Of a stretch of 64,000 bases of DNA, positions 34,996 through 52,101 are shown one piece after another. The position numbers were made by a program, and so were the translations under genes. Numbering within the stretch: position 1 is the stretch's first letter; each line of letters opens with the position of its first letter. This DNA is from Mesorhizobium sp. J8 (GTDB taxonomy: Bacteria; Pseudomonadota; Alphaproteobacteria; Rhizobiales; Rhizobiaceae): NCBI RefSeq assembly GCF_016591715.1, contig NZ_AP024109.1:1054001-1118000 (forward strand), read 5' to 3'. The notes under the pieces are model-generated. The model worked only from the letters and a program-made list of their open reading frames with translations, did not search any database and was not told the origin of the DNA.

Positions 34996-36063
34996 ATGCA
35001 TGACATTCCCGTCACGCGCGCCGCGGCGCGCAAGCCCCTCCCGCAAGACCTCAAGGCGAGCTTCGGCGATTACTTCTCCGACCACATGTTCCAGATGGAG
35101 TATACGGAAGGACGTGGCTGGCACGACCCGCGCATCGTGCCGTTCGGCCCGCTGCAACTCCACCCCTCATCCTCCGTCATCCAATATGCCCAGTCGATCT
35201 TCGACGGGTCCAAGGGCTATCGCCGAGAGGACGGCTCGGTCCATCTTTTCCGGCCGCAGGCCCATATCGCGCGCCTCAACCGCAGCGCCGGCGAGCTGTG
35301 TATGCCGGCGGTCGATCCCGACCTCGTGCTTGCCGCGATGCGCAAGTTGATCGATCTTGATCGCGACTGGGTGCCGGCCAAGCGTGGCAACGCCATCTAT
35401 GTGCGCCAGACCATGGTGGGGACCGAGGGCTACATGGTGGTGCGGCCTTCCAGCACCTACACCTATCTCATCTTCCTCTGCCCCGTCGGCTCTTACTACT
35501 CGGAGGGCGCCGGCCCGGTCCGCATCCTCGTCTCCGAGACGCGCGTGCGCGCGGCCAAGGGCGCGATCGGCTCGGCCAAGGCCGGCGCCAACTATGCCGC
35601 CAGCCTCAAGGTGGGCCGCGAGGCCGCCGCGGCCGGCTTCAGCCAGGTTTTGTGGCTGGACAGCGTCCAGCGCCGCTATCTGGAGGAGGTCGGCACCATG
35701 AACATCATGGTGAAGATCGGCGGCCGCATTCTCACGCCGCCATTGAGCGATTCGATCCTGCCGGGCATCACGCGCCACAGCGTGCTCACGCTCATGCGCG
35801 ACTGGGGCATGGAGGTGGCCGAGGCGCCCATCGACATCGAGGACGTCGTGGCGGCATCGAGGGCCGGCACGCTGGAGGAGATGTGGGGCGTCGGCACGGC
35901 CGCCGTGATCTCTCCCGTGGGTGAGCTCGCCTGGCGCGGCGAAAAGATCGTCGTCAACGGCGGCCGGACGGGGCCGGTGGCGGCGAAGCTGTTCGAGCAC
36001 CTGACGGGCCTGCATGCCGGGACCGTGCCCGACAGGCATGGCTGGTCGGTCGCTGTCGACTGA
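34996..36063 (+). CDS. Class IV (branched-chain type) aminotransferase
   Basis: A 355-aa fold-type IV PLP enzyme like IlvE. The PLP lysine is Lys195 in SAKAGANYAAS; LSDSILPGITRHS is the family phosphate-binding region. It transfers an amino group between a hydrophobic or similar amino acid and 2-oxoglutarate. Placed between deacylases and an amino-acid-type ABC importer, it more likely acts in breakdown of the imported compound than in biosynthesis. A terminator follows directly. Confidence 0.86.
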   Translation: MHDIPVTRAAARKPLPQDLKASFGDYFSDHMFQMEYTEGRGWHDPRIVPFGPLQLHPSSSVIQYAQSIFDGSKGYRREDGSVHLFRPQAHIARLNRSAGELCMPAVDPDLVLAAMRKLIDLDRDWVPAKRGNAIYVRQTMVGTEGYMVVRPSSTYTYLIFLCPVGSYYSEGAGPVRILVSETRVRAAKGAIGSAKAGANYAASLKVGREAAAAGFSQVLWLDSVQRRYLEEVGTMNIMVKIGGRILTPPLSDSILPGITRHSVLTLMRDWGMEVAEAPIDIEDVVAASRAGTLEEMWGVGTAAVISPVGELAWRGEKIVVNGGRTGPVAAKLFEHLTGLHAGTVPDRHGWSVAVD

Positions 36064-36248: not shown

Positions 36249-37145
36249 ATGTATTCGGGACCGATCATCGATTCGCACCATCACCTGTGGGACCTTTCCA
36301 TGGGCAAGCATCCATGGCTGCTGCCCACGGACCCTTCCGTGCAGGCGGTAGCCGGTCTTTCCGAGATCGCCACCAATTATCTGGTGGACGATTATGTCCG
36401 CGATTCCAGCGGCCATAATATCGTCGCCACGGTGCATATCGAGGCGTTGTGGGCCGGCGATCCGGTGGGGGAGACCCGCTGGCTGGAAACCCTGGACAAG
36501 TCGAAGGGCGTGGCCTCGCGTTACGTGGGCGGCGCTTCGCTGGGCAAGCCGGAGGCGGCGGACGCCATCGCGAGACAGGCGGCGTTCGACCGGATGACCG
36601 GCATCCGGGGTATTTTGAGCTGGCACCCGGACCCCAAGAAATGCTTCGTGACCGATCCCGAGCTCGGGCGCAACCCGCAGTGGCGCCGCGATATCGCCCG
36701 GCTGCAGGAGCATGGGCTCAATCTCGAGCTGATGATGTATCCCTACCAGGCCGGCGTCGTGCGGGAGATCGCCGAGGCGCTTCCCGGCCTGCAGATCATC
36801 ATCAATCATTGCGGCAGCCCGATCGACCGCGATCCGGAAGGCATGCAGCGCTGGCGCGACGGCCTGAAGCACATCTGCGCCTGTCCCAACATCGCCATCA
36901 AGATTTCGAACCCGGGCGCCTACGACCACAACTGGACGCTGGAAAGCGTTCGCGACGTCGCCATGCATTGCATCGACTGTTTCGGCACCGAGCGCAGCAT
37001 GTTCGGCACGGATTATCCGGTCTCGAAGATCCAGATGAGCTTCGACCAGATCTACGACACCTTCAAGAAGATCGCCGCCGTCCTGTCGCCTCAGGAGCAA
37101 TCGCGATTGTTCCACGACAACGCCAAGCGCTTTTACCGGCTGTGA
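36249..37145 (+). CDS. Amidohydrolase family (Amidohydro_2) protein
   Basis: A 298-aa TIM-barrel metal hydrolase. It has the HxH metal motif in DSHHHLWD (residues 8-15), a later His in IINHCGSP, and the Asp of FGTDYP. Relatives hydrolyse lactones or amides or decarboxylate. The ATG follows GGGAG. It starts a second transcript of the cluster, followed by an M20 deacylase and an ABC importer, suggesting ring opening or amide cleavage of an imported compound. Confidence 0.82.
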   Translation: MYSGPIIDSHHHLWDLSMGKHPWLLPTDPSVQAVAGLSEIATNYLVDDYVRDSSGHNIVATVHIEALWAGDPVGETRWLETLDKSKGVASRYVGGASLGKPEAADAIARQAAFDRMTGIRGILSWHPDPKKCFVTDPELGRNPQWRRDIARLQEHGLNLELMMYPYQAGVVREIAEALPGLQIIINHCGSPIDRDPEGMQRWRDGLKHICACPNIAIKISNPGAYDHNWTLESVRDVAMHCIDCFGTERSMFGTDYPVSKIQMSFDQIYDTFKKIAAVLSPQEQSRLFHDNAKRFYRL

Positions 37146-37188: not shown

Positions 37189-38349
37189 ATGACACATTCT
37201 TCCGCGATCGAACTCTTGGGCCGGCTGGTCGGGTTCAACACCGTCAGCAGCCGGTCGAATCTGGAGGCGATCGACTTCATCAAGGCCTACCTTGCCGGTT
37301 TCGGGGTGCAGAGCGTCATCATCCCCGACGCGACCGGCACCAAGGCCAACCTGCTCGCCACGATCGGGCCGGCCGACCGTCCGGGCTATGTGCTGAGCGG
37401 CCATACCGATGTCGTCCCGGTCGAGGGGCAGGAGTGGTCGCGCGACCCGTTCAACATGTGGCGTGACGGCGACAGGCTCTATGGCCGCGGCACGTCGGAC
37501 ATGAAGGGTTTCATCGCCTGCGCGCTGGCCGGCGTACCCGCCATGCTGGAGAAGCCGCTTGCCGCCCCCATCCATCTGGCCTGGTCCTATGACGAGGAGG
37601 TCGGATGCCTGGGCGTGCACGGCATCATCGAGCACATGGCGAAGACCTTGCCGCCGCAGCTTGCCGTCTTCGTCGGCGAGCCGACCGGCATGGGCGTTGT
37701 CGGCGGCCATAAGGGAAGCGCCGGCCTGCTCACCACGGTGACAGGCAAGGCCTGCCATTCGTCTCGCCCCGACCTCGGCGTGAACGCCATCTTCCACGCC
37801 ATGGACCTGATGGGAGAATTGCGCTCCTACGCGAACGAACTTCGTTCTGCCCCCGAGGCCGACTCGCCGTTCGAGGTGCCCTACACGACGGTGAGCGTCG
37901 GCGTCGTCCAGGGCGGCACGGCGCGCAACGCCATACCGGGCGATTGTGCCTTCCAGTGGGACATCCGCGCCACACGCAGCGGCGTGCTGGAGACGCTGGT
38001 GAACAGGTTTCGGGCGTTCAGCGACAGCAAGGTCGTTCCGGCCATGAAGGAAGGCTTCGCCGGCTCCGCCGTGGTGACCAATATCGCCTATGACGTTCCG
38101 CCCTTCATTCCCGACGCGGGCTCGCACGCCGAAACGCTTGCCAAACGTTTTGCCGGCCGCAACGAGGTGACGGCCGTGAACTATGGGTCCGAAGCCGGCA
38201 TCTTCCAGTCCGCCGGCATGTCGACCATCATCTGCGGTCCGGGGCGCGACAGCGAAGCGCACATAACCGACGAATGGATCGCCGTCGAGCAGCTCGAACG
38301 TTGTGTCGGCTTCGTCGACCGGCTGATTGACCATGCGCGTCATGCCTGA
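37189..38349 (+). CDS. M20-family deacylase (ArgE/DapE-like)
   Basis: A 386-aa zinc peptidase/deacylase like acetylornithine deacetylase. Metal and catalytic residues are visible: GHTD (His72), GRGTSDMKG (Asp104), YDEEVG (Glu136/Glu137), VGEPTG, and a C-terminal SEAHITDEW. It removes an acyl group from the alpha-nitrogen of an amino acid; ArgE itself is possible, but the catabolic context favours another N-acyl substrate. The next gene begins about 50 bases later. Confidence 0.86.
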   Translation: MTHSSAIELLGRLVGFNTVSSRSNLEAIDFIKAYLAGFGVQSVIIPDATGTKANLLATIGPADRPGYVLSGHTDVVPVEGQEWSRDPFNMWRDGDRLYGRGTSDMKGFIACALAGVPAMLEKPLAAPIHLAWSYDEEVGCLGVHGIIEHMAKTLPPQLAVFVGEPTGMGVVGGHKGSAGLLTTVTGKACHSSRPDLGVNAIFHAMDLMGELRSYANELRSAPEADSPFEVPYTTVSVGVVQGGTARNAIPGDCAFQWDIRATRSGVLETLVNRFRAFSDSKVVPAMKEGFAGSAVVTNIAYDVPPFIPDAGSHAETLAKRFAGRNEVTAVNYGSEAGIFQSAGMSTIICGPGRDSEAHITDEWIAVEQLERCVGFVDRLIDHARHA

Positions 38350-38398
38350 AAAGGGCCTGCCGCGAAGACTGAACATCGCAAAAATGGGGAATGATCTC

Positions 38399-39646
38399 AT
38401 GCAGAGGGGACTACTGAGACAATTGCTTCTTGTCGGCGCGCTAAGCGCGTCGGCCCTGGGCACGGCAATGGGCGCGGCGGCTGCCGACGTCGTCAAGATC
38501 GGCGTGCTCGCGCCGCTTTCCGGACCTTCGGCCTCCGACGGCGCGGACTTCGTCAAGGGCGTGGAACTCGCCGTCGACGAGCGGAACGCCAAGGGCGGCG
38601 TGGCCGGCCACACGTTCGAGATCGTCTCGGCGGACGTCAAGGACGGATCGCCCGACAATGTCAGCAGCGCGGCGCAGCGCCTCATCAACACGGAAGGCGT
38701 GCAGGTCGTGCTGACCGGCTATGCGAGCCTGTCGCTCTTCGAGGTCGATCTCTTCGCCGACGCCAACATGCCCTACATCTCGTCCGGCCCGTCCGGTTCG
38801 TTTGCCGGCATCGTGAGCAAGGACCCGGGCAACTACAATTGCTGCTGGTCGCTGTCGCCGTCCTACAAGGGCTACGAGACGGACGTGCTTCCGCTGGTGG
38901 AAGGGCTGATCGCCGACGGCAAGTTCAAGCCGGCGGGCAAGAAGCTGGCGATGATCTCGTCCGACAATCCTTATTCCAAGGTCATCTCGGAAGGCATGAA
39001 GAAGTCCTTCTCCGCCGCCGGCTGGACCGTGACCGTGGATGAGATGGTGCCGTTCGGCCCCGTCAACGACTGGCGCGCCATCCTTGCCAAGGTGCGGCAG
39101 GACCCGCCCGACCTCGTGGTCAACACCGATTATCAGCCCTCGAACTCCGCCCTGTTTCTGAAACAGTTCCTGGAACAGCCGACCCAGAGCCTGGTGTTCC
39201 TGCAATACGCGCCGTCGGTGCCCGAATTCGTCGACCTGACCAAGGAACAGTCGAACGGCGTCCTCTACAACCTGATCGGCGGCGCCATCGACTCGCCCGG
39301 CTGGCCGCGCGGACAGGAAGTGCTGAAGAAATACCAGGACAAGTTCAAGGTCGCCTCCGGCGTCTACGGCTCGGCCCTCTACGAAGAGGCGGAGATGTAT
39401 TTCGCGGCGCTGGAGAAGGTCGGCGATCCCAAGGATCACGACGCGATCGGCAAGGCGCTCGGCGAAACCAAGGTCGACGCCGCGCCGGGGCCGGTCGAAT
39501 TCGACCAGGCGACTCATCTTGCCGTGCAGGACGAGAACCACATTCCGGTGACCTTCTACCAGATCTGGGACGGCAAGCGCTTCCTGATCGGGCCGAAGAA
39601 ATACGCGACTGGCGATTTCAAGCTTCCGCCTTGGATCAAGCAGTAG
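38399..39646 (+). CDS. Branched-chain-amino-acid-type ABC transporter substrate-binding protein
   Basis: A 415-aa periplasmic binding protein of the LivJ/Peripla_BP_6 type (KIGVLAPLSGPSAS after the signal; VDERNAKGGVAG; SAAQRLINTEGV). The start ATG 38399 gives a clean Sec signal (MQRGLLRQLLLVGALSASAL...ADVV); the frame extends upstream into the M20 gene. Ligand unknown. A strong terminator behind it would make it more abundant than the downstream ATPase and permease subunits. Confidence 0.9.
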   Translation: MQRGLLRQLLLVGALSASALGTAMGAAAADVVKIGVLAPLSGPSASDGADFVKGVELAVDERNAKGGVAGHTFEIVSADVKDGSPDNVSSAAQRLINTEGVQVVLTGYASLSLFEVDLFADANMPYISSGPSGSFAGIVSKDPGNYNCCWSLSPSYKGYETDVLPLVEGLIADGKFKPAGKKLAMISSDNPYSKVISEGMKKSFSAAGWTVTVDEMVPFGPVNDWRAILAKVRQDPPDLVVNTDYQPSNSALFLKQFLEQPTQSLVFLQYAPSVPEFVDLTKEQSNGVLYNLIGGAIDSPGWPRGQEVLKKYQDKFKVASGVYGSALYEEAEMYFAALEKVGDPKDHDAIGKALGETKVDAAPGPVEFDQATHLAVQDENHIPVTFYQIWDGKRFLIGPKKYATGDFKLPPWIKQ

Positions 39647-39764: not shown

Positions 39765-40490
39765 ATGATCCTTACGGCCGAAAATCTCACCAAGTCCTTC
39801 GGCGGCTTGCGCGCCGTGGGGGGCGTCAGCTTTGCGCTGGCCGAGAACGAAATACTCGGCGTCGCCGGGCCGAACGGCAGCGGCAAGAGCACACTGTTCA
39901 ACATACTGACCAACATCCCCTTTCCGGCCGACAGCGGTCGCGTCGTTTTCGATGGCAGGGAAATCCAGAACGTGGCCCCGGAGGAGGTGAGCCGTTCCGG
40001 CATCGCCCGCACCTTCCAGCGCGAAAGCATCTTCACCTCGCTGAGCGCTATCGACAACGTGCTGGTGGCCATCGAGCATAGTGGCAAGCGGCAGGGGCAG
40101 AAAGAGAATGAGGCCGCTGCGATCGGGGTGCTCGACATGGTGGGCTTTCCCCAGACCCTGCACAATGCGCCGACCGCAACGCTCCCCATCTTCTTCCGCA
40201 AGATACTGATGATAGCCAGCGCCCTGGCCATGTCGCCGCGCGTGCTTTTGCTCGACGAGCCGGCGTCGAGCCTGACGCCCGGCGAGATCGAACATATGAA
40301 GGCGCTCATTCTCGGGCTGCGCCGGCGCGGCATCGCCATCCTGCTCATCGAGCACGTCCTGCCGCTGCTGATGGCCGTCTGTGACCGGCTTATCGTCCTC
40401 GACCAGGGCCGGGTGATCGCCCAGGGGCTCCCCTCCGAAGTCGTTGCCGATCCGAAAGTGGTCGAAGCCTATCTGGGGCAGGCACGATGA
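39765..40490 (+). CDS. livG: ABC transporter ATPase, LivG type, with degenerate signature motif
   Basis: A 241-aa ATPase. Walker A GPNGSGKS (35-42), Walker B VLLLDEP (160-166) and the switch His197 are present. Where the ABC signature should be, residues 139-146 read TLPIFFRK instead of a (S/P)xGxQ(R/K)-type motif, so one of the two composite ATP sites of the LivG/LivF pair is probably weak. Overlaps livF by four bases (ATGA). Energises the importer encoded by the following genes. Confidence 0.88.
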   Translation: MILTAENLTKSFGGLRAVGGVSFALAENEILGVAGPNGSGKSTLFNILTNIPFPADSGRVVFDGREIQNVAPEEVSRSGIARTFQRESIFTSLSAIDNVLVAIEHSGKRQGQKENEAAAIGVLDMVGFPQTLHNAPTATLPIFFRKILMIASALAMSPRVLLLDEPASSLTPGEIEHMKALILGLRRRGIAILLIEHVLPLLMAVCDRLIVLDQGRVIAQGLPSEVVADPKVVEAYLGQAR

Positions 40491-41278
40491 CGGACACGCT
40501 TCTCCTCGATGTCAGGGGCCTCGATGGCGGCTACGAGCCGCTGCAGATCTTCCGCAAGATCGACCTTTCGCTGGTGCAGGGCGCCAGCGTGGGGTTGTTC
40601 GGCCCGAACGGCCACGGCAAGACGACCTTCCTGAGGACCCTGTCCGGTATCATCGATCCGTGGGATGGGGACATTTTCTTCGACGGTGTCCAGCTCAACC
40701 GTCCGGGCGCGCGCGGCAGCAGGCGCTGGCGCAATTTCAACTACGACGCCATAACCCGGCGCCGGATGGATCCGAAAGCGGTGGCGCGCGCCGGGCTGAT
40801 CCATGTCCCGCAGGGAAACCTGCTGTTTCCGGACATGACCGTCGCCGAAACGCTGTCGATCGCACCCTATGCCTCCCGCGGGCGCGCCAATGCGGCGGAG
40901 ACGCTGGACAAGGTCTTCCGGCTCTTTCCCCGGGTGCACGAGCGGCTCGGCCACAAGATACGCTTCCTTTCGGGCGGCGAGCGCCAGATGGTGGCCATCG
41001 GCGTCGGGCTGATGGCGGCGCCGAAGCTACTCATCCTCGACGAGCCGACGCTGGGACTGTCGCCCAAGCTGCGCGGGGAACTCGCTTCGGCGATCCAGAC
41101 CATCCGGGAATCCGGCGTGCCGCTGATCGTGGTCGATCAGGACATCGCCTTCCTCGAGGAGCTGATCGACACGCTCTACCTGTTCGACCACGGCCGCATC
41201 TCGCGCCGCATCGAGAAGGCCGACATGCCGACGCATGAAGAGATCATGAACCTGATGTTCGGCGAGGATCACCATTGA
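40487..41278 (+). CDS. livF: ABC transporter ATPase, LivF type
   Basis: A 263-aa ATPase. Walker A GPNGHGKT (39-46), signature LSGGERQ (161-167), Walker B LLILDEP. An insertion rich in Arg (about residues 73-99) follows the first beta-sheet. Intact motifs suggest this subunit completes the active ATP site with LivG. Four-base overlap with the next gene. Confidence 0.9.
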   Translation: MTDTLLLDVRGLDGGYEPLQIFRKIDLSLVQGASVGLFGPNGHGKTTFLRTLSGIIDPWDGDIFFDGVQLNRPGARGSRRWRNFNYDAITRRRMDPKAVARAGLIHVPQGNLLFPDMTVAETLSIAPYASRGRANAAETLDKVFRLFPRVHERLGHKIRFLSGGERQMVAIGVGLMAAPKLLILDEPTLGLSPKLRGELASAIQTIRESGVPLIVVDQDIAFLEELIDTLYLFDHGRISRRIEKADMPTHEEIMNLMFGEDHH

Positions 41279-42162
41279 CCCTTGAGACGCTTAACCTGAT
41301 CCTGCTTGGCGGCATCGTGCTGGGCGCGCTCTATGCGCTGATGGCGACCGGGCTGGCGCTCGTGTGGACGACGCTCGGCATCTTCAATTTCGCCCACGGC
41401 ACGTTCATTGCGCTCGGCGCCTATATTGCCTGGCAGATCGCCAGCACCGAGGCCTCGGGCGCCGGCCTGCTGGCCGGGGCGGCGGTCTCCATCATCGGCA
41501 TGTTCGTCATCGGTATGCTGGTCTACTATCTCCTCATCAAGCCTTTCGAACGAAACCCGGACATCGTGGTGAAATCCGTCATCACCACGCTCGCGGGCGC
41601 CACCATCCTGGAAAACGTCATCAATCTCGTCTGGGGGCCGCGCAACAAGCAGCTCTCTCCGCTGCTCGGCGGCGACATGTCGATGCTCGGCATCACCATA
41701 TCCCGCAACGAGATGGCGGTGGTGGCGCTGGCGCTGGTCATCCTGGCGGCGCTCGGCGTGTTCCTGCAGCGCGCGCCGCTTGGCCGCGCCATGCGCGCCG
41801 TGGCGCAGAACCGTGAGGCGGCGCAACTCATGGGCATCGATGTCGAGCGGCTCTACGCGATCGCCTTCGGCCTGTCGGCGGCGCTGGCGGCACTGGCCGG
41901 CATCCTGATCGGCTCCACCCGCTTCATGAACCCCTCGATGGGCTCCGACCCGCTGATGAAAGCGCTGATCGTGGTGATCTTCGGCGGCATCGCGCGCTTC
42001 ACCGGCCCGATCTACGCGGCCTTCATCGTTGGCTTGCTCGAGGCGGTCATGACCTACCTCGTCGGCCTCTACTGGAGCCCGACGGTGCTTTTCGCCATCA
42101 TGATCGTCGTGCTTGTCGCCAAGCCAGAAGGCCTGTTTGGCCGATACAGGAAATCCGTCTGA
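41275..42162 (+). CDS. livH: ABC transporter permease, LivH type
   Basis: A 295-aa membrane protein with about eight hydrophobic helices, GxALVWTTLGIFNFAHGTF near the N-terminus as in LivH, and AIIVVIFGG-like ALIVVIFGGIA near the C-terminus. The start is TTG at 41275, sharing TTGA with the livF stop; no ATG fits. Pairs with the LivM-type permease encoded next. Confidence 0.9.
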   Translation: MTLETLNLILLGGIVLGALYALMATGLALVWTTLGIFNFAHGTFIALGAYIAWQIASTEASGAGLLAGAAVSIIGMFVIGMLVYYLLIKPFERNPDIVVKSVITTLAGATILENVINLVWGPRNKQLSPLLGGDMSMLGITISRNEMAVVALALVILAALGVFLQRAPLGRAMRAVAQNREAAQLMGIDVERLYAIAFGLSAALAALAGILIGSTRFMNPSMGSDPLMKALIVVIFGGIARFTGPIYAAFIVGLLEAVMTYLVGLYWSPTVLFAIMIVVLVAKPEGLFGRYRKSV

Positions 42163-44036
42163 TGCGGTACAGCCCGTCCTTCGCCCGCAGTTCCGGGCTG
42201 ATCCCGGTCCTGATCGTCCTGGCCGTGCTTGCGCTCGTGCCGCTGCTTTCATCGAGCATGTATCTGCGGCATCTCCTGGTGCTGGCCTTCGTGTTCGGCA
42301 TCGTCGCCTCGAGCTGGGACCTTAGCCTTGGGTATGGCGGCCTGTTCAATTTCGCCCATGTCGCGCTCTTTACCATTGGCACCTATGCGTTCGGACTCGT
42401 CGGCCAGACCCTCGGCCTGTCGCCATGGCTGGGCATAGCCTTCGCCGGTATCGCCGCGGGGCTTGTCGCGGCTCTCATAACGCTGCCCATCCTGAGGCTT
42501 TCAGGCATCTACATCATCCTGGTGACCATCGCCGCCTCACAGGTGCTCTACCAGATCATCATCAGCCAATCCGACATAACCGGCGGCACGTCGGGCATGG
42601 TGAGCCTGCCGGCGCTCGAGCTCTTCGGCTACCGCTTCAACCGCGGCGGCAAGGTCGGTTATTATTACCTGGCCCTGCTGATGCTGGTGGCCTCCACCAT
42701 CATCCTCTACAAGATCACCCGCTCGCGTTTCGGCCGCGCCATCGTGGCCATGCGCGACCACAAATATTACGCCATCTCGCGCGGCATGTCCGAAACGCGC
42801 ACCCGGCTGTTCACGCTGACGGTGAGCGCGGCGCTGAGCGGCGTGGCCGGCGGCTTCTACGGCTCCTACATGCGGGTTGCCTCTCCCGACAATTTCGGCC
42901 TCGGGCTGCTCGGCCTGCTGCTCTCGATGCTTTTGCTCGGCGGCGCCGGAACGATCTGGGGCCCTATCCTTGCGGCCTTCTTCGTGACCATGGTGTCGGA
43001 GGTCTTCGCCGCCTACGGCGCCTGGCGCAACATCATCATGTCGCTGTTGCTGATCGTCATCCTGATCTTCTATCCGGGCGGGCTGTGGGCATTGCTGCAG
43101 ACGCTTCGCGAAGCGCTCGACGTGGCGCGCTCGCAGACGACGGCCAGGCTGCGCCGCCGCTTCGGTCTCGCCCAACGTGAAGCGATGACCGGAGCGCGTG
43201 AGACGATGGTCGCCACCCGCCATGGCAGGATCGCCGTTGCGGACACCGGCGGCGACAAGCCGGCGCTTCTCCTCGTCCACGGCAACTCCTCCGCCAAGGA
43301 GGTGTTCGCCAACCAGTTCAAGGCGCTCCGCGACCGCTATCGGGTCATCTCCTTCGACCTGCCGGGCCATGGCGTGTCCGACAATGCCGATCCGGAAAAG
43401 GACTATAGCGTCGAGGCCTTCGCCGACGTCGCCGAAGACGTGCTGAAGGCGCTCGGCGCGGCAAACCCTTTTGTGTTCGGATGGTCGCTGGGCGGGTATA
43501 TCGCCATCGAGCTCGCGGCCCGCGGCTATCCCGTGCGGGCGCTTGCCATTTCGGGCACGCCGCCGCTCAGGGTCGTTCCGGAAGATGTCGGCCGCGCCTA
43601 TGACGCGACCAGCCATTTCGTTCTTGCGAGCAAGACCTTCCTGTCGCCGGCCGAGAGCCGCGACTTCGCCGCTTCGACGACCGGCCCGAAGACGGCGGAG
43701 ACGCTTCACTTCCACCGAGCCGTGCGAAGGACCGACGGGCGCGCCCGCGCCTACACGCTGGGCAAGCTCCAGATCGTCGACTGGCCGCGACAGATGCGGT
43801 TCCTGCGTTCGAGTGCGGTGCCGTTCGCCATCCTGAACGGCTCGGACGATCCGTTCCTGAACCATCAGTATTTCCGGGAATTGAAGCTTGAGCAGTGGAC
43901 CGGCGAGCCGGACGACATCCAAGGCGGCAAGCACGCGCCCTTCCTGCTGAAGCCGGCGATCTTCAACGAAAAGCTCGCCGCTTTCCTGCAGGCCGCCGAA
44001 GCAACAAGCCGGCATGGCGCCGACGCGGTCGCCTGA
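42162..44036 (+). CDS. LivM-type permease fused to an alpha/beta hydrolase
   Basis: A 624-aa fusion. Residues 1 to about 310 are a normal LivM permease (hydrophobic helices; SWDLSLGYGGLFNFAHVALF; GRAIVAMRDHKYYAISRGMS; end IFYPGGLW). A ~35-residue Arg-rich linker follows, then a complete alpha/beta hydrolase (about 345-612): LVHG oxyanion loop (His373), nucleophile elbow GWSLGG (Ser442), acid Asp562 or Asp563 in NGSDDPF, and catalytic His591 in GGKHAPF. The frame is continuous with no stop between the parts; an internal ATG (residue 342) might also allow separate translation. The hydrolase would face the cytoplasm, placed to process the substrate as it enters. The ATG overlaps the livH stop (TGATG). 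Last gene of the importer operon. Confidence 0.88.
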   Translation: MRYSPSFARSSGLIPVLIVLAVLALVPLLSSSMYLRHLLVLAFVFGIVASSWDLSLGYGGLFNFAHVALFTIGTYAFGLVGQTLGLSPWLGIAFAGIAAGLVAALITLPILRLSGIYIILVTIAASQVLYQIIISQSDITGGTSGMVSLPALELFGYRFNRGGKVGYYYLALLMLVASTIILYKITRSRFGRAIVAMRDHKYYAISRGMSETRTRLFTLTVSAALSGVAGGFYGSYMRVASPDNFGLGLLGLLLSMLLLGGAGTIWGPILAAFFVTMVSEVFAAYGAWRNIIMSLLLIVILIFYPGGLWALLQTLREALDVARSQTTARLRRRFGLAQREAMTGARETMVATRHGRIAVADTGGDKPALLLVHGNSSAKEVFANQFKALRDRYRVISFDLPGHGVSDNADPEKDYSVEAFADVAEDVLKALGAANPFVFGWSLGGYIAIELAARGYPVRALAISGTPPLRVVPEDVGRAYDATSHFVLASKTFLSPAESRDFAASTTGPKTAETLHFHRAVRRTDGRARAYTLGKLQIVDWPRQMRFLRSSAVPFAILNGSDDPFLNHQYFRELKLEQWTGEPDDIQGGKHAPFLLKPAIFNEKLAAFLQAAEATSRHGADAVA

Positions 44037-44405
44037 TATCCAGACCGGAAACCTGCAAGGAGAGCCGGGCGCAACCAAAGAGCTCCAGCCTCCGGGAGCC
44101 CTGCTTGCGGGCGCTTTCGCTTCACTCCACCGAGCGCGTGCCGGAGTGGCTCTGACGAGCGAGCCGGCGCCTGCAGGATCGAACATCTTCGAAATCTGTG
44201 AAAGGCGTTGAAGCCCGTCATACGCTTTGAATGGACACAGGTGTACATTCGCGCTAGATGTGCGCTCGGCTTTGCTTTGGGATGTTCGGCACCAACAGCA
44301 AAGCAGGTATAAGGGGCAATCGATGCACATGTTCGAGCTGGGGACACGGCGGCCAGGTCCTTGCGGTGGAGCGACGTCTCCGGCCTGCGACGACGGTTTG
44401 CGCGC
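44037..44405 (+). promoter_or_regulatory. Promoter region of the sox operon
   Basis: A 369-base spacer with no convincing gene. It holds the operator-like motif at 44232-44249. The soxB frame is open to a TTG at 44361, but ATG 44406 gives the family-typical start. Confidence 0.6.
44232..44249 (-). promoter_or_regulatory. Operator-like motif upstream of soxB
   Basis: On the minus strand it reads AATGTACACCTGTGTCCA. It is identical at 15 of 18 positions to the site at 58788-58805 (AATGTACACTGGTGTCTA) and shares TACAC-N2-xTGTC with 57609-57624. The core ACAC-N2-GTGT is a dyad. Which regulator binds is unknown; the TetR protein encoded at 49388-50050 is a candidate. Confidence 0.5.
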
Positions 44406-45659
44406 ATGACGAGGCAGTACTCGGCGCTTTCGCTCTTCAAGGAAGGCATCGCCGGCCAGACCGGCTGGGAAAAGGCCTGGCGCTCTCCCGACCCGAAACC
44501 GCGCTACGACGCGATCATCATCGGCGGCGGTGGGCACGGGCTTGCCACCGCCTATTACCTGGCGAAGAATCACGGCGTCACCAATGTCGCGCTGCTCGAG
44601 AAGGGCTGGATCGGCGGCGGCAATACCGGCCGCAACACCACGGTGGTGCGGTCGAACTACTTCTACCCTGAAAGCGCGGCGATCTACGGGCTGGCTCACA
44701 GCCTCTACAAGACGTTGTCGACGGACCTGAACTACAATGTGATGTTTTCGGCGCGCGGCATCCTCACCCTCGCGCACAGCGAAGCGGGAATGGAAACCGC
44801 CGCGCGGTCGGTCAACGCCATCCAGGTCAACGGCATCGACTGCGAACTGTTCTCGGTCGAGGATGTGCGGCGCGTCGTGCCGATCTACAATTTCAGCCCG
44901 GACACACGCTTCCCCGTCTATGGCGGCACCTGGCAGCCGAGCGGCGGCACCGCCCGCCACGACGCCGTCGCCTGGGGCTATGCGCGTGCGGCGAGCCGTC
45001 TCGGCGTCGACATCATCCAGAACTGCGAGATCACCGACTTCATCATCGAGAACGGGCGCTGCCGCGGCGTCGTCACCTCGCGCGGCGCTATCCGGGCCGA
45101 GCGTACGGGCATGGCGGTCGCCGGTCATTCGTCGGTGCTGGCGGCGAAAGCCGGTTTCCGGCTGCCGGTCAATTCCTACGCGCTGCAGGCCTGCGTGTCC
45201 GAACCGGTCAAGCCGATCATCGACACGGTGGTGATCTCGCCGGACACGGGCGTCTATGTCAGCCAGTCGGATAAGGGTGAACTGGTGATCGGCGGCGCGC
45301 TTGACCGCATCCCGTCCTACGGCCAGCGCGGCAACCTGCCGGTGCTGGAAGGCGTAATCGCCGGCATGCTCGAGATGTTCCCGATCTTCGGCCAGTTGAA
45401 GATGATGCGGCAATGGGCCGGCATCGTCGACGTCGTCCCGGATTCTTCGCCCATCATCGGCGAGTCGCCGCTGCCCGGCCTGTTCCTCAACTGCGGCTGG
45501 GGCACGGGCGGCTTCAAGGCGATTCCCGCCGGCGGCACGCTGCTTGCCCATCTGCTTGCCACCGGCAGGCATCACGACATCAGCCGTCCCTTCGATCTCG
45601 ACCGCTTCGCCCGCGGCCGTCTGATCGACGAGGCCGCCGGCTCCGGCATTGCCCATTGA
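44406..45659 (+). CDS. soxB: Sarcosine oxidase subunit beta
   Basis: A 417-aa flavoprotein. N-terminal TRQYSALSLFKEGIAG, then the FAD-binding GGGGHGLATAYYLAKNHG, and GTARHDAVAW with His185 at the position that binds FMN covalently in heterotetrameric enzymes. It oxidises sarcosine (N-methylglycine), passing the methyl group as formaldehyde to folate bound by the alpha subunit. First gene of soxBDAG. Confidence 0.93.
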   Translation: MTRQYSALSLFKEGIAGQTGWEKAWRSPDPKPRYDAIIIGGGGHGLATAYYLAKNHGVTNVALLEKGWIGGGNTGRNTTVVRSNYFYPESAAIYGLAHSLYKTLSTDLNYNVMFSARGILTLAHSEAGMETAARSVNAIQVNGIDCELFSVEDVRRVVPIYNFSPDTRFPVYGGTWQPSGGTARHDAVAWGYARAASRLGVDIIQNCEITDFIIENGRCRGVVTSRGAIRAERTGMAVAGHSSVLAAKAGFRLPVNSYALQACVSEPVKPIIDTVVISPDTGVYVSQSDKGELVIGGALDRIPSYGQRGNLPVLEGVIAGMLEMFPIFGQLKMMRQWAGIVDVVPDSSPIIGESPLPGLFLNCGWGTGGFKAIPAGGTLLAHLLATGRHHDISRPFDLDRFARGRLIDEAAGSGIAH

Positions 45660-45673
45660 AGGTTTAGAACAAA

Positions 45674-45943
45674 ATGCAGCTCTTTCCCTGCCCCTTCTGC
45701 GGGCCGCGCGAAGAAAGCGAATTCCATTATGGCGGCGAGGCCGGCAATCTGAGGCCAGACGGCAGTGATGTGACCGCCGAGCGCTGGGCCGGTTATCTCC
45801 ATATGCGCGACAATCCGAAAGGACCGGCCCGCGAGATCTGGGTGCATCTGACCTGCGGCGAGTTCTTCGCGATGAGCCGCGACAGCGTCAATCACAAGGT
45901 GTCCGGCTCGTCCGTGCTTGGCGAAGCGGAGCACGGACGATGA
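45674..45943 (+). CDS. soxD: Sarcosine oxidase subunit delta
   Basis: An 89-aa zinc-binding subunit. Ligands CPFC (Cys6, Cys9) and VHLTC (His58, Cys61) are all present, as is the RWAGYLHMRDNPKGPAREIWVH stretch typical of the family. It stabilises the tetrameric complex. Four-base overlap with soxA (ATGA). Confidence 0.95.
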   Translation: MQLFPCPFCGPREESEFHYGGEAGNLRPDGSDVTAERWAGYLHMRDNPKGPAREIWVHLTCGEFFAMSRDSVNHKVSGSSVLGEAEHGR

Positions 45944-48819
45944 GCGCTTCCCGTCTCGCAACCGGTGGCAGCGACATCGATCGCGACCATCCGCTGAGCT
46001 TCACCTTTGACGGCAGGCGCGTGCAGGGTTTCGCGGGCGACACGATCGCCTCCGCCTTGCTCGCGAGTGGCCAGGCAATCGTCGGCCGTAGCTTCAAATA
46101 TCATCGCCCGCGCGGCATCTGGGGCTCCGGCGTCGAAGAGCCCAACGCGTTGGTCGATGTCGAGAGCGCGGCGGGCGGCGTGCCGAATGCCCGCGCCACG
46201 ACCGTAAAAGCCGTGGAAGGCACGAAGGTCAGGAGCGTCAACGCTTCGCCGACGGCCGAGAACGACCGCAACGCCGTTCTGGATCGCTTTGCGCGCTTCC
46301 TGCCCGCCGCCTTCTACTACAAGACCTTCATGTGGCCGGACTGGCACCTGTTCGAGCCGCGCATCCGCGCCATGGCAGGACTTGGCGTCGTCGATCCAGA
46401 CTGGCAGCCGCGTCAGGTCTCGGACCAGGTCAACCATCATTGCGATGTCCTTGTGGTCGGCGCCGGGCCGGCCGGCCTTGCCGCGGCAGCCAGCGCGGCG
46501 GCGGCTGGGCACTCGGTCGTGCTGGCCGACGACCGGGCGCATCCCGGCGGGTCGCTGCGCCATCGCGCCGGCGAAGTCGATGGCATCGAGGGTAGGGCGT
46601 GGGTCGAGGCGACGGTTGCCAGGCTGAAGGATGGCGGCCAGCTGGTGCTGAGCGAGACGACCGCTTTCGGCCTCTACGACCACAATCTGGTCGCGCTCAA
46701 CCAACGCCACTCCGACGGCCGGCCGGACACGCTGTGGCGTGTGCGGCCCCGCCGCATCGTGCTTGCGACGGGCGCGATCGAACGGCCCGTGCCGTTCGCC
46801 AACAACGACCTGCCCGGAATCCTGTCCGCTGATGCCGCGCTCAGCTATCTGCGCCGGCATGGCGTGCTTGTCGGCCGGGAAATCGTCGTCGCGACCAACA
46901 ACGACAGCGCCTATGAGCCGGCCTCGGCGTTGGCCGCGGCCGGCGCTTCGGTGACGGTGGTCGACTGCCGGCGCGACGACGCTGCGCAAGCGAAGGGCGG
47001 TATTCGCGTCCTGGCGGGTCGTACCATCACGGCGGCGCGCGGTCGCAACGCCGTCCAGGGTGTCCTGCTGGACGATAGCACGGTGCTTGCCGCCGACTGC
47101 GTTCTCGTCTCCGGCGGCTGGACACCCACCGTGCACCTGTTCTCGCAGGCGAAAGGCAAGCTCGCCTGGAGCGATCAGCTGGCGGCCTTCATTCCCGGCG
47201 AAACCATCGACGGGATCGGCGTCGCCGGCGCCGTGGCCGGCACGGTCTCGCTTTCGGAGGCCTTGGCCGGCGGCGTCGCGGCCGTTGGCGACTTCGGCTC
47301 GTCGTCGGCCGCGCCTCGCGGTACGGGAGCGGAAGCAACGCTTGGCGTCGTCAGCCTGTGGCCGAAGCCCAAGGCCAGGGGTCGCGTCTGGATCGACTAC
47401 CAGAGCGACGTCACCGCCAAGGATGTCGAGCTGGCGGCGCGGGAGAACTTCGTCTCGGTCGAGCACCTGAAGCGCTACACCACGCTCGGCATGGCGACCG
47501 ACCAGGGCAAGACCTCGAACTTGAATGGGTTAGCGCTGCTGGCGGACATCACCGGGCGCGGCATGGCGGAAGTCGGCACCACGACCTACCGGCCGCCCTT
47601 CACGCCTGTCCCGTTCGCCAGCCTTGCGGGAGCGCGCCGGGGCAGCATGCACGCTCCGGTCCGCCGTCTGCCGCTGGAGGCAAACCATCGCGCCGCAGGC
47701 GCCGTGTTCCAGGAATATGGCGGATGGCTGAGGCCTGCCTACTATGGTGGCGGTGAAGCCGGTGCCTCGATCCAGGACGAGGCGCGGCGGGCCCGGCAAT
47801 CCGTGGCGCTCTTCGACGGCTCGACGCTGGGCAAGATCGAGGTGATCGGCCCGCGCGCGGCCGAGTTTGTCGACTTCATCTATTACAACACCATGTCGAC
47901 CCTGAAGCCGGGCCATTGCCGCTACGGCTTCATGCTGTCTGAAAATGGCGTCGTCTTCGATGACGGCGTCCTGGTTCGTCTCGACGAGCATCGCTTCATC
48001 GTCTCCTGCTCGTCCTCGCATGTCGCCGCGGTCCACGCGCGCCTCGAGGAGTGGCGGCAGGACCGCTTTGGCCGCGATGCGGTCTATATCCACAACGCCA
48101 CCGCGCAATACGCCACCTTGACGGTGTCGGGTCCGAATGCGCGCCAGGTCGTCGAAGCGCTCGATCTGGGCGCGGCACTGGATGACGCCAGCCTGCCGCA
48201 CATGGCGGTCGCCGCTGGCCGCTTTGCCGGAGACGAGGTGCGCATCGCGCGTGTCTCCTTCACCGGCGACCGCAGCTACGAGATCTCAATCCGAGCCGAT
48301 CGGGCGGAGGCGCTCTGGGCAAGGATGCGGCAGGAGGGCCGCGCCTTCGACGCCGTGCTGCTTGGGCTCGAATCGCTGATGATCCTGCGCGCCGAGAAGG
48401 GCTACATCGTCATCGGCAAGGACACCGACGGAACCACAATGCCGCACGATCTCGGCGTCGCCGGACCGCGGACCAAACGCGCCAGCGAGTTCGTCGGCCG
48501 GCGCTCGCTTTTCACGGAAGCGGCAAACAGCACGGACCGCAATCAGCTCGTCGGCCTTGCGCTGCGCGAAGGCGAGGCGCCGCTGGCGACCGGCGCGCAT
48601 GGCGTCGAGAAGCGCGACGGCCGGCTCAGAAGCATCGGCTTCGTCACCTCCAGCTACCGGAGCCCGACCCTGGGACGCCCGGTTGCGCTCGCGCTCATCG
48701 AGCGGGGAGCGGCGCGGCACGGCGAAACCATCGACGTTCAACACCTGGGTGTCGTGCGGCGGGCGACGATTGTCGCGCCCTGCGCCTTCGATCCGGAGGG
48801 GAGGCGGCTCCATGCGTAA
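45940..48819 (+). CDS. soxA: Sarcosine oxidase subunit alpha
   Basis: A 959-aa subunit. Order of domains: N-terminal Fer2_4-like domain (SFTFDGRRVQGFAGDTIASAL; GRSFKYHRPRG), a nucleotide-binding Rossmann region (VLVVGAGPAGLAAAASA, about 169-185) that holds NAD in known enzymes, and a C-terminal GCV_T-like folate domain (from about 590; EYGGWLRPAYYGG) where methylene-tetrahydrofolate is formed. Full length. No folate-metabolism genes (folD, purU, glyA) are adjacent, unlike many sox loci. Confidence 0.95.
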   Translation: MSASRLATGGSDIDRDHPLSFTFDGRRVQGFAGDTIASALLASGQAIVGRSFKYHRPRGIWGSGVEEPNALVDVESAAGGVPNARATTVKAVEGTKVRSVNASPTAENDRNAVLDRFARFLPAAFYYKTFMWPDWHLFEPRIRAMAGLGVVDPDWQPRQVSDQVNHHCDVLVVGAGPAGLAAAASAAAAGHSVVLADDRAHPGGSLRHRAGEVDGIEGRAWVEATVARLKDGGQLVLSETTAFGLYDHNLVALNQRHSDGRPDTLWRVRPRRIVLATGAIERPVPFANNDLPGILSADAALSYLRRHGVLVGREIVVATNNDSAYEPASALAAAGASVTVVDCRRDDAAQAKGGIRVLAGRTITAARGRNAVQGVLLDDSTVLAADCVLVSGGWTPTVHLFSQAKGKLAWSDQLAAFIPGETIDGIGVAGAVAGTVSLSEALAGGVAAVGDFGSSSAAPRGTGAEATLGVVSLWPKPKARGRVWIDYQSDVTAKDVELAARENFVSVEHLKRYTTLGMATDQGKTSNLNGLALLADITGRGMAEVGTTTYRPPFTPVPFASLAGARRGSMHAPVRRLPLEANHRAAGAVFQEYGGWLRPAYYGGGEAGASIQDEARRARQSVALFDGSTLGKIEVIGPRAAEFVDFIYYNTMSTLKPGHCRYGFMLSENGVVFDDGVLVRLDEHRFIVSCSSSHVAAVHARLEEWRQDRFGRDAVYIHNATAQYATLTVSGPNARQVVEALDLGAALDDASLPHMAVAAGRFAGDEVRIARVSFTGDRSYEISIRADRAEALWARMRQEGRAFDAVLLGLESLMILRAEKGYIVIGKDTDGTTMPHDLGVAGPRTKRASEFVGRRSLFTEAANSTDRNQLVGLALREGEAPLATGAHGVEKRDGRLRSIGFVTSSYRSPTLGRPVALALIERGAARHGETIDVQHLGVVRRATIVAPCAFDPEGRRLHA

Positions 48820-49336
48820 CCTTGCCGAAAAATGGCCGGCGGCGCCCGACTGGGCGAGCGCCACGCTCAGCAAAGGCAGCGTCAGCGTGCGGACGGTTGG
48901 CGGGCTGAACCAGCTTCTGGTCAGCGGCGACCTCGCTGCCTGGTCGAAGGCGTCAAGGCTCGCCGGCGAAGGCGTAGGCGCCGGCGCAATCGCCAGCGGC
49001 GACAGATACATGGTGCGGATCGCGCGCGACCGCCTCCTTGCCGTCGGCGAACAGCCGTTCCCCGTTGCCGCCGGTTGGCACGCGGCCGGTTTCGCGGCCA
49101 CGGTCATGGATGCCGGACTCCACGTGTTCGAGATCGAGGGGTCGGATGTGGAGCGCCTGATCGCCAGGGGCACGGCGCTCGATCCGGCAGCGGCAAGCCG
49201 CTCGGCTTCGATTCTTTTCGCCGGCGTCGGCGTTCTCTTCTACCGGTTCGGCACCCCCGATCGGGTGCGTCTCCACGTCGACCGGGGCCTTGCTCCCTAT
49301 CTCTGGGAGTGGCTCGAACAGGTGCAAGTGTTGTAG
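48812..49336 (+). CDS. soxG: Sarcosine oxidase subunit gamma
   Basis: A 174-aa gamma subunit (MRNLAEKWPAAPDWA; ending LYRF-type VLFYRFGTPDRVRLHVDRGLA). The ATG at 48812 lies eight bases before the soxA stop, with GGAGGGGAGG upstream; the longer open frame is a shadow of soxA. The family is poorly conserved, so position carries much of the call. Confidence 0.85.
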   Translation: MRNLAEKWPAAPDWASATLSKGSVSVRTVGGLNQLLVSGDLAAWSKASRLAGEGVGAGAIASGDRYMVRIARDRLLAVGEQPFPVAAGWHAAGFAATVMDAGLHVFEIEGSDVERLIARGTALDPAAASRSASILFAGVGVLFYRFGTPDRVRLHVDRGLAPYLWEWLEQVQVL

Positions 49337-49387: not shown

Positions 49388-50050
49388 ATGCTCTCCGATT
49401 CCAATGCTGATGAAGTCGTGCGGCGGTCCGGTCTGATCGGCAACACCAAGGTGACGCGCGAGGACTGGATGAGCCTCGCGCTGGAGACGTTGATCTCCGA
49501 GGGCGTGGAAGCCGTGCGCGTGCTTGCGCTCGGGCAGAAGCTGAACGTCTCGCGTTCCAGTTTCTACTGGTACTTCGAGAGCCGCCAGGACCTGCTCGAC
49601 CAATTGCTGGACTACTGGCGCAACAACAACACCCGTTTCATCGTCGAGCAGGCCGGACGGCCGGCCACGTCGATCACGCAGGCGGTGCTCAATGTCTTCG
49701 AGTGCTGGCTGGATGAGAAGCTGTTCAATCCGCGGCTGGATTTCGCCGTGCGCGCCTGGTCGCGCCAGTCCGCCGAAGTGCATCGGATCGTCAACGAGGA
49801 AGACGACACGCGGGTCGACGCCATACGGGCGATGTTCTCACGGCACGGTTATGCCGAGACGGAAGCGTTCGTGCGGGCGCGCGTGCTCTATTTCACGCAG
49901 ATCGGCTATTACTCGCTCGAGATCGTCGAGCCGGTAAGCAACCGTCTTTTCTTGACCCCGGCCTACCTGCTCACGCATACCGGCAAGGAACCTCGCGCAG
50001 GGGAGGTCGAGGCCTTCGCCGAAAAGATGCTGCTGAAAAGCCCCGGCTGA
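49388..50050 (+). CDS. TetR-family transcriptional regulator
   Basis: A 220-aa regulator. The helix-turn-helix occupies about residues 23-70 (WMSLALETLISEGVEAVRV; LNVSRSSFYWYFESRQDLL). The C-terminal ligand domain is helical and unassigned. Located 51 bases after soxG on the same strand and convergent with the CocE gene. It is a candidate controller of the sox and peptide-uptake genes through the shared operator motif, though I see no clear copy of that motif directly in front of it. Confidence 0.9.
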   Translation: MLSDSNADEVVRRSGLIGNTKVTREDWMSLALETLISEGVEAVRVLALGQKLNVSRSSFYWYFESRQDLLDQLLDYWRNNNTRFIVEQAGRPATSITQAVLNVFECWLDEKLFNPRLDFAVRAWSRQSAEVHRIVNEEDDTRVDAIRAMFSRHGYAETEAFVRARVLYFTQIGYYSLEIVEPVSNRLFLTPAYLLTHTGKEPRAGEVEAFAEKMLLKSPG

Positions 50051-50073: not shown

Positions 50074-52101
50074 TCAATTCAGGTCTCGTGGAAATTCCTT
50101 GACCTCCTCGCGATCGACCACGACCTCATCACCGGCGCGCGCGACGAGATGCGTTTCCATGCGCCAGACATCGCGCAACGCACGCACCGTGGCGGATACC
50201 GAAACGCGAGCGTTCCAGTCGCCGCGCGAATAGGTCTTGTCCCAGGTCACGGTTCCGCGCGCAGAGTTCGGATCGTCCGGATGGACGGTGAAGATCTCGG
50301 TCTGTCGCTGCGACAGGGTCATGCCGGTGTGGGGATGGTGCACCGTTCCCGCGTCGCTGACGATCGTGTAGGTGGATTCCCCGGTGATCTGGTCCGTGGT
50401 TACCTCGCGCCGGAAAGGCTCGCCCGCCTTGATCACCTCCTGAGCCATCGGCGTGGCGCTTTCCGGTCCCTTGAATTCCGGGAGCGTCTTGTCGAGCGGC
50501 TGCGGCTTGCGCACCGGCAGGATCAGCCTGCTTCCGGCACAATGGATCGACAGCGTCGCGTTCTCCGGTCCCGGGAAGACGATCGGCCAATGCCCGGTGG
50601 CGATGGCGAGCCGGATGCGCTGGCCCTTCTCGAAGCGCTGGCCGCAGCAGCGCAATTTGAGGCGCACCGTCTCGGCCTCGCCCGGTGTCATCGGCTTGAG
50701 ATCGAGATCGTCATGCCTGTGGGTGAGATTGAGGATGCCGTAGCTGACGCGCGAGGCGGCACCGTCTTCCAGCACCAATGACAGGGTCGCCGAGATCAGC
50801 GCGACCGGTTTGTCCGAGGCGAGCTTCACCTCGAATTCCGGGAAGCCGAGGATCTCCACGGCTTCCTTCAGCGGCTCGGTCTCGAAGACGAGCGCATTGC
50901 CGGCTTCCATGCGCTGGTCGACCGGCAAGGTCGGCAGCACGCCGTAGCCACACCACGCGCCGGACGAGAGCCCCGCCGTGGAGGGCGAGCGGATCGTCAG
51001 CACGTCGTCGCTGCCGGCGTCCTCGGCAAGTTTGCCGGGCGAGAGCGCGAGCGTATATTCGCCGACGCCAGGTCCCGGCCAGGACGGCTCGGCCACCCAG
51101 CGCCCGGGACGCTCGTCATAGATCGCGGCCGGTGCCGCCGGTTCCTGCATCCAGGCGCGCAGCATAGGTTCGTCGGCGATGCCTGTGTCGATGCCCTTGA
51201 GATACTGGTCCCACCAGCGCAGGCATTCCTGGAGGAAGCCCATGCGCGGCCCGGGCATGGCGAAGTGCGGGTATTTGTGGCCCCACGGGCCGATCAGTCC
51301 CTTGCGGATACCCGGCAGATGTTCAAGCATACGGAAGATCGGGTTCGGATAACCGTCCGCCCAGCCGCCGACCGCATAGACCGGGATCTCGACGTCCGCG
51401 TAATCCTCGCAGATCGAGCCGTGCTTGTAGAAGTCGTCGCGGCGCTGGTGCTCGAACCAGTCCTGCATCCAGATGCCGTTGCCTTCGAGGCGCCCCTCCC
51501 ACAGCTCGCGCCAACGGTCGCCGACGATCAGCGGATCGGGCGGCGTCATGGCGATCGCCCAGGCGGTCGTGCCCCACATCAGATTGTCGCACATCTGCGC
51601 GCCGCCGAGATAGTGGACGTCGTCGTTGTAACGGTCGTCGGTGGAGCAGAGCGAGATCACCGCCTTCAGCGCCGGCGGGCGGCGGGCGGCAACCTGGAGC
51701 CCGTTGAAGCCGCCCCAGCTGATGCCGATCATGCCGACCGCGCCCGAGCACCAGGGCTGCTTCGCCAGCCATTCGATGACGGCGAGACAATCGTCCTGTT
51801 CCTGCTTCAGATATTCGCCCTTGCAGACGCCTTCGCTGTCGCCGGTGCCGCGCATGTCGACACGCACGCCGGCATAGCCGTGGCCGGCGAAATAAGGATG
51901 GGTGAGCGCATCGCGCTCCACCGTTCCGTCGCGCTTGCGGTAGGGCAGGTATTCGAGGATGGCCGGCACCGGATCGGCTTCGGCGTCCTGTGGTAGCCAG
52001 ATGCGCGCGGCGAGCTTCACGCCGTCCGGCATCGGGATCCACAGGTTCTCGATCTCGCGGACCTTGCGCGGGAAATCGGTGACCACGCGGATGTCTTTCA
52101 T
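50074..52101 (-). CDS. CocE/NonD-type (S15 family) serine hydrolase
   Basis: A 675-aa alpha/beta hydrolase: VDMRGTGDSEG, nucleophile elbow GISWGGFNG (Ser128), and a C-terminal jelly-roll domain (from about 470; RCCGQRFEKGQRIRLAIATG). Relatives are X-Pro dipeptidyl-peptidases, cocaine esterase and glutaryl-acylases. There is no signal peptide, so it acts in the cytoplasm. Last gene of the opp-type operon, it probably cleaves the imported peptide, amide or ester. Confidence 0.87.
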   Translation of the reverse strand: MKDIRVVTDFPRKVREIENLWIPMPDGVKLAARIWLPQDAEADPVPAILEYLPYRKRDGTVERDALTHPYFAGHGYAGVRVDMRGTGDSEGVCKGEYLKQEQDDCLAVIEWLAKQPWCSGAVGMIGISWGGFNGLQVAARRPPALKAVISLCSTDDRYNDDVHYLGGAQMCDNLMWGTTAWAIAMTPPDPLIVGDRWRELWEGRLEGNGIWMQDWFEHQRRDDFYKHGSICEDYADVEIPVYAVGGWADGYPNPIFRMLEHLPGIRKGLIGPWGHKYPHFAMPGPRMGFLQECLRWWDQYLKGIDTGIADEPMLRAWMQEPAAPAAIYDERPGRWVAEPSWPGPGVGEYTLALSPGKLAEDAGSDDVLTIRSPSTAGLSSGAWCGYGVLPTLPVDQRMEAGNALVFETEPLKEAVEILGFPEFEVKLASDKPVALISATLSLVLEDGAASRVSYGILNLTHRHDDLDLKPMTPGEAETVRLKLRCCGQRFEKGQRIRLAIATGHWPIVFPGPENATLSIHCAGSRLILPVRKPQPLDKTLPEFKGPESATPMAQEVIKAGEPFRREVTTDQITGESTYTIVSDAGTVHHPHTGMTLSQRQTEIFTVHPDDPNSARGTVTWDKTYSRGDWNARVSVSATVRALRDVWRMETHLVARAGDEVVVDREEVKEFPRDLN

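Follow-up and report, generated by a model that had tools for sequence, protein, structure and literature searches.

Why should a permease subunit of an ATP-binding cassette (ABC) importer end in a complete alpha/beta hydrolase, and what might such a protein take up and cleave? The question is raised by a gene of Mesorhizobium sp. J8, which we analyzed within a window of 64,000 nucleotides (positions 1054001-1118000 of a genome that consists of a single contig of 6.69 Mb; among named loci, those of Mesorhizobium are closest). The gene lies at 42162..44036 on the plus strand, like the other importer genes of its operon, and encodes a LivM-type permease followed by an AidH-type alpha/beta hydrolase in one frame of 624 aa without interruption. 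A preliminary description of this DNA had noticed the open frame and a catalytic triad of Ser442, Asp562 or Asp563, and His591, and both observations were borne out. Pfam places BPD_transp_2 at residues 37-301 (132 bits; 42270..43064) and an alpha/beta hydrolase match inside residues 367-609 (Abhydrolase_1 and Abhydrolase_6 within 367-599, at 76-77 bits), within a hydrolase part of approximately residues 346-617 (43197..44012). Alignment shows Ser442, Asp563 and His591 (codons 43485-43487, 43848-43850 and 43932-43934) in the window protein and in 121/121 fused homologues. Asp563 is the conserved acid, since Asp562 is an aspartate in only 90 of the 121. His373 and Asn375 are likewise invariant in this set, and Gly374 is kept in 120/121.

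A protein search returned 343 relatives at E ≤ 0.001 among 8000 candidates scored, and both domains were present in all of the 120 best homologues, at lengths of 614-640 aa. From a scan of named genomes, the best 80 of 120 confirmed relatives' loci were retained. Among these 80, 48 are fused (some cut by contig ends), five encode permease and hydrolase in two neighbouring genes (L055, L056, L057, L061 and L062), one (L059) has an unfused permease with a hydrolase gene nearby on the opposite strand, and 26 have stand-alone hydrolases. The sole stop inside a fused frame was seen in L033, a contig of a metagenome-assembled genome (MAG) at 1.18x coverage. The permease-hydrolase fusion is a conserved architecture, mainly of Alphaproteobacteria, and not the singular oddity for which it had first been taken; nor did we find the feared situation in which the two parts are always separate genes elsewhere. 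A full-length fused match was present in two of 398 genomes drawn from the phylum (the window's own and one congener), so the fusion is widespread but sparse. In the plasmid collection, only partial matches were found, in three records, of which two are solo hydrolases and one is without annotation there.

In trees that include 29 fused representatives, the permeases of fused proteins group in a single clade (support 99/100), as do the fused hydrolases (82/68), which fits a single fusion event, with moderate support on the hydrolase side. The permeases of the split-gene loci form a clade apart from the fused ones, and therefore importer and hydrolase have been combined in more than one way. 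It is worth noting that one genome (L057/L176) has a fused-type operon linked to a LuxR-type regulator gene and a split-type operon back to back, and that both operon types also occur in Hoeflea poritis (L031, L056) and in MAG bin.49 (L036, L061). In addition, L067, labelled Bacillus subtilis SK6B4, has a hydrolase near-identical to that of Pseudochrobactrum (tree branches of 0.027), and its label or assembly looks wrong.

By both sequence and fold, the closest solved relative of the hydrolase is by far AidH, an N-acyl-homoserine lactone (AHL) lactonase of Ochrobactrum (PDB 4g5x, 4g8b-d, 4g9e and 4g9g; available part of PMC3532132), at 37-38% identity; the fold searches were filled by the hydrolase half and cover that half, not the permease. 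The two enzymes are alike in fold, cap, Ser-His-acid triad and the oxyanion positions Asn33/Leu103. AidH Ser102, His248, acid 219 and Asn33 correspond to S442, H591, D563 and N375, which are invariant in the 121 fused proteins, and Leu103 corresponds to L443 (120/121). Unlike AidH, the fused enzyme is tethered to a permease, and its acid is Asp where that of AidH is Glu. Judged by sequence and fold, the hydrolase is a member of the AidH subfamily of alpha/beta hydrolases.

The two halves are joined by a linker of residues 304-345 (43071..43196), mainly helix in the predicted model, and the distance from Arg316 to Glu347 is 30-32 residues in 121/121 fused proteins. The model has a mean predicted local distance difference test score of 77, reaching about 90 across much of the hydrolase, and its helix 305-334 runs out of the membrane part. 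The linker is Arg-rich (seven Lys and Arg, three Asp and Glu); by the positive-inside rule it is probably cytoplasmic, and the hydrolase would face the cytoplasm, in agreement with the side suggested in the preliminary description.

The fused gene belongs to a full LIV/HAAT-type set in one operon, consisting of the LivM-type BPD_transp_2 protein, a second permease, two ATPases and a Peripla_BP binding protein. Upstream of it in the window are the LivH-type second permease (41275..42162), a LivF-like ATPase (40487..41278; ABC_tran), a LivG-like ATPase (39765..40490; ABC_tran and BCA_ABC_TP_C) and the periplasmic binding protein (38327..39646, start approximate; Peripla_BP_6). The ATPase, permease and fused genes overlap by 1-4 bases on one strand. 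Further upstream, the deacylase and amidohydrolase neighbours that had been pointed out earlier are indeed present, as an M20 deacylase of the ArgE type (37189..38349; above the NCBIfam cut-off) and an Amidohydro_2 enzyme (36249..37145; best NCBIfam match L-fuconolactonase, under its cut-off). A branched-chain aminotransferase gene of the ilvE type (34996..36063, plus strand) is an uncertain member of the operon, because it lies upstream in L009, L010, L011 and L014 and not in L012 and L013. In a low-identity alignment, the binding proteins of 48/48 relatives and of the window have Asn where the amino-acid binder 4n0q has Glu, which we take to be the residue with which amino-acid binders fix the amino group of the ligand. 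Within the limits of such an alignment, a ligand without a free amine therefore fits, and an importer of free amino acids is less likely. A paralogous importer operon is present elsewhere in the window's genome (L089, C1:1314000-1333000), with a binding protein 51% and a LivM 44% identical to those of the window; it also holds M20, isochorismatase-like, N-formylglutamate-amidohydrolase-like and RpiR genes, and these 19 kb revealed no hydrolase of the AidH type.

When the open frames surrounding 55 loci (L009-L062 and L089) were clustered, a LuxR-type regulator emerged as the most frequent non-importer family, found at 34 of the 55, all other such families reaching at most seven loci. Autoind_bind and GerE domains were present in 4/4 members scanned, and the one regulator tested against solved structures matched 3szt, a quorum-sensing control repressor, best. 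Counted with a hidden Markov model derived from the same cluster, the regulator is near 35 of 42 fused operons with a readable upstream side (divergent and adjacent in 34, and at 2.9 kb in L042). Copies also adjoin the L059 operon, which is unfused, and the second of the L057 operons; the family was not found in any of the 26 solo-hydrolase loci. TraR residues Y53, W57, Y61, D70, P71, W85 and G113, several of which we take to contact the AHL head group, are kept in 37/37 regulators. The plant-responsive PipR/OryR subgroup of LuxR proteins is presumably changed at positions 57 and 61, and an OryR-type regulator was rejected as W57 and Y61 are present in every copy.

Further examination of the divergent intergenic regions revealed a lux-box-like palindrome, ACTAnCA-N4 or N6-TGnTAGT, matching at ≥10/12 positions in 12 of 36 regions, such a match being seen in 0.42% of shuffled sequences and in 0.15% of 1349 random windows; the consensus had been derived from the very 36 regions in which it was then counted, and its first version, with the 4-base spacer alone, reached ≥10/12 in eight of them. 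Of 44 carrier genomes, counting fused, split and unfused types, 33 contain an AHL-synthase match. Four such matches are found in the window's genome, which also has five Autoind_bind genes, all five located away from the fused-gene operon. One of these five (L101, C1:1551910-1552353) encodes a regulator in which Cys occupies the position of Tyr61, and, unlike the other four, it has its nearest AHL-synthase match about 65 kb away.

Relatives of AidH also occur near the same importer as separate genes. Among 394 genomes from the window's family, 33 match the AidH relative P0163 at E ≤ 1e-70, and 31 loci from 31 of these genomes were examined. The importer's binding protein (≥40% to that of the window) lies within about 10 kb in 23 of the 31, usually with an unfused hydrolase; four of the 23 (L175-L178) are L055, L057, L056 and L061 again, 19 are new, and L176 also contains the fused-type operon. 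In 17 of the 23, the hydrolase gene is divergent from a complete set of binding protein and LivGFHM genes, with an M20 gene beyond the set, and 16 of these 17 hydrolases match AidH best, at 56-72% identity. Nearly all of the 23 importer-linked relatives share Met77, Phe138, Met144, Tyr160 and Phe221 with AidH (each in 22 or 23 of them; Tyr160 in 22), but Phe189 is retained in only 13 and Phe192 in 19.

We favour, at roughly even odds (about 0.5), an import-and-cleave module for an AHL-like N-acyl lactone; its substrate, its transport and its control by LuxR are all read from genes and residues. In the periplasm, the binding protein would capture an AHL-type N-acyl lactone or a closely related compound, and the importer would carry it across the membrane. 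The AidH-family serine hydrolase, tethered at the cytoplasmic end of the LivM subunit of this LIV/HAAT-type ABC importer, could then open the ester or lactone bond on arrival, so that the product would be trapped inside; cleavage would take place at the channel exit, and transport and cleavage would be coupled. In most carriers, the divergent AHL-receptor-like LuxR would control the operon, and the ligand would be sensed and destroyed in one loop. The Mesorhizobium-type version in the window is without the LuxR gene. Here, the opened product would be an N-acyl amino acid, which the M20 deacylase could strip of its acyl group; because this enzyme and the Amidohydro_2 enzyme are encoded upstream, the product may be used as food. 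Three features suggest an N-acyl lactone as the substrate: the place of the hydrolase in the AidH subfamily, the residues kept by the LuxR proteins, and the repeated occurrence of an M20 deacylase. The preliminary description had proposed an importer for an ester- or amide-linked compound; the setting of importer and hydrolase agrees with it, and the likely substrate has shifted towards an N-acyl lactone because of the kinship to AidH and the LuxR gene near 35/42 fused loci. Only tentatively do we suggest the more specific form, a signal-regulated ABC importer dedicated to AHL-type signals, in which channel and quenching enzyme form one protein, under an AHL receptor in most carriers.

Several observations weigh against an importer of AHL-like lactones. 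AHLs are held to enter cells by diffusion, according to the accessible part of PMC4981722. The regulator family is absent at seven of the 42 fused loci (L009-L014 and L044, scored for that family only), which include the window's own kind, and no LuxR gene of this family stands beside L009-L011 and L014, which are near-identical to the window. The strong palindrome is missing from 24 of the 36 divergent regions, and no AHL-synthase match was found in 11 of the 44 carrier genomes. In the pocket, AidH Tyr160, which holds the ring oxygen, corresponds to Phe502 in the window (Tyr in 62 and Phe in 59 of the 121 fused proteins), His106 is replaced by Tyr in all 121, and the tunnel residues Phe138, Phe189 and Phe192 are mostly replaced (Tyr480, Leu533 and Leu536 in the window, still bulky). 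No importer lies near the copies most similar to AidH itself (85-93%; L160, L162, L165 and L166). The split and divergent operons also contain genes of the N-formylglutamate-amidohydrolase-like, isochorismatase-like and RpiR types, a gene content that looks like a breakdown route for a compound carrying several amide bonds. Much of this would suit an importer with a catabolic role, taking up a nutrient that is an N-acyl ester, lactone or amide and not a signal. The hydrolase would cut first, followed by the M20 and Amidohydro_2 enzymes; the AHL activity of AidH relatives would then be a side activity and the LuxR protein a sensor of the nutrient. We regard this as a serious possibility, though a somewhat less likely one, given that such catabolic genes recur around the importer, that the AidH pocket residues are altered and that AHLs are not expected to need active import. 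It is countered by the AHL-receptor residues, intact in all LuxR copies, and by a hydrolase that remains closest to AidH. The isochorismatase-like gene does not decide between signal and nutrient, because HqiA, itself an isochorismatase-like enzyme, is an AHL lactonase according to the available text of PMC5430456.

It is unlikely that the permease is a mere membrane anchor for a hydrolase that destroys inward-diffusing signals, with a substrate unrelated to the importer's cargo. AHLs can diffuse, as stated in the portion of PMC4981722 at hand, and solo AidH-type enzymes function without an importer (PMC3532132, in part), and the importer was not found near the 26 solo loci; but unfused AidH relatives, too, are found close to the same importer, either divergent from it or adjacent to it, which would be needless for an anchor, and the linker length is fixed. 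It seems equally improbable that translation from an internal start yields the hydrolase as a free enzyme, be it in addition to the fused protein or as the main product. The start once proposed at residue 342 is rejected as a conserved feature, the position being Met in 26, Leu in 48 and Arg in 45 of the 121 fused proteins. Met349 is commoner (76/121), so some internal initiation may occur, for example in single species, and in 19 of 43 loci the linker contains an in-frame ATG or GTG preceded by a Shine-Dalgarno-like stretch (a raw count, without a chance level); against this stand the fused frame and the 30-32-residue spacing in every fused protein. Finally, an assembly error or frameshift joining two genes, like a join by chance, can practically be dismissed: nothing was found in its favour, and 48 fused genome loci and 120/120 two-domain proteins, from many sources, speak against it.

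Downstream of the fused gene, after 324 bp, the window contains sarcosine-oxidase-family genes (44361..49336, plus strand; soxB and soxA above cut-off, with a 3' frame ending at 49336 without a Pfam match), which are probably a separate unit. Sarcosine-oxidase-like genes (44361-48819 in the window) also adjoin a solo AidH-type hydrolase in L078. A TetR-type regulator gene follows (49388..50050, plus strand), convergent with a gene for a CocE/NonD-family hydrolase (50074-52101, minus strand; above the NCBIfam cut-off). In seven other loci (L016-L019, L025, L026 and L046), one gene family follows the fused gene; its L016 member, the one scanned, is a threonine synthase, which may reflect homoserine use or an ordinary chromosomal neighbour.

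If the favoured import-and-cleave reading is true, it contradicts the common view that AHLs need no importer, and AidH-type lactonases would gain a natural setting and a physiological partner; PMC5430456, in its available part, describes the physiological role of AHL-degrading enzymes as undetermined. The system would also allow transport and signal destruction to be studied jointly in one protein. Even with another lactone as substrate, a fixed catalytic tail on a subunit of a widespread ABC importer is unusual.

Compared with known systems, the gene set and protein families are those of the LIV/HAAT branched-chain amino acid importer (LivJKHMGF), from which the present system differs by the hydrolase tail on LivM and by Asn in place of the amino-group-binding Glu in the binding protein. 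The Lsr system is an ABC importer for the quorum-sensing signal autoinducer-2, which is processed inside the cell; there, the signal is another one, the enzyme is a kinase rather than a hydrolase, and no fusion is known. The available sections of three papers on LuxR solos (PMC10134790, PMC4338825 and PMC8546723) name no LIV importer with a hydrolase, and no description of a permease-AidH-type fusion was found among the top-ranked matches in the open-access literature. As far as the accessible text of PMC4981722 goes, the PipR system of Pseudomonas GM79 likewise combines a LuxR-type regulator and an ABC importer with hydrolytic enzymes that are presumed to break down the signal taken up; it differs in its peptide-type importer, its peptidases, the lack of a fusion and an OryR-type receptor that is unresponsive to AHLs. 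QsdH of Pseudoalteromonas byunsanensis (PMC3466314, in part) likewise combines an AHL lactonase and a membrane transporter on one chain, but there a GDSL hydrolase is attached to a resistance-nodulation-division efflux pump and predicted to be periplasmic, and no ABC importer is involved. PipR is thus the closest precedent in logic and QsdH the closest for a lactonase on a transporter, the architecture of neither matches, and what sets the present system apart is the combination of known parts: a LIV importer, an AidH-type hydrolase and a LuxR neighbour, put together such that the role of AidH-type lactonases becomes open to testing.
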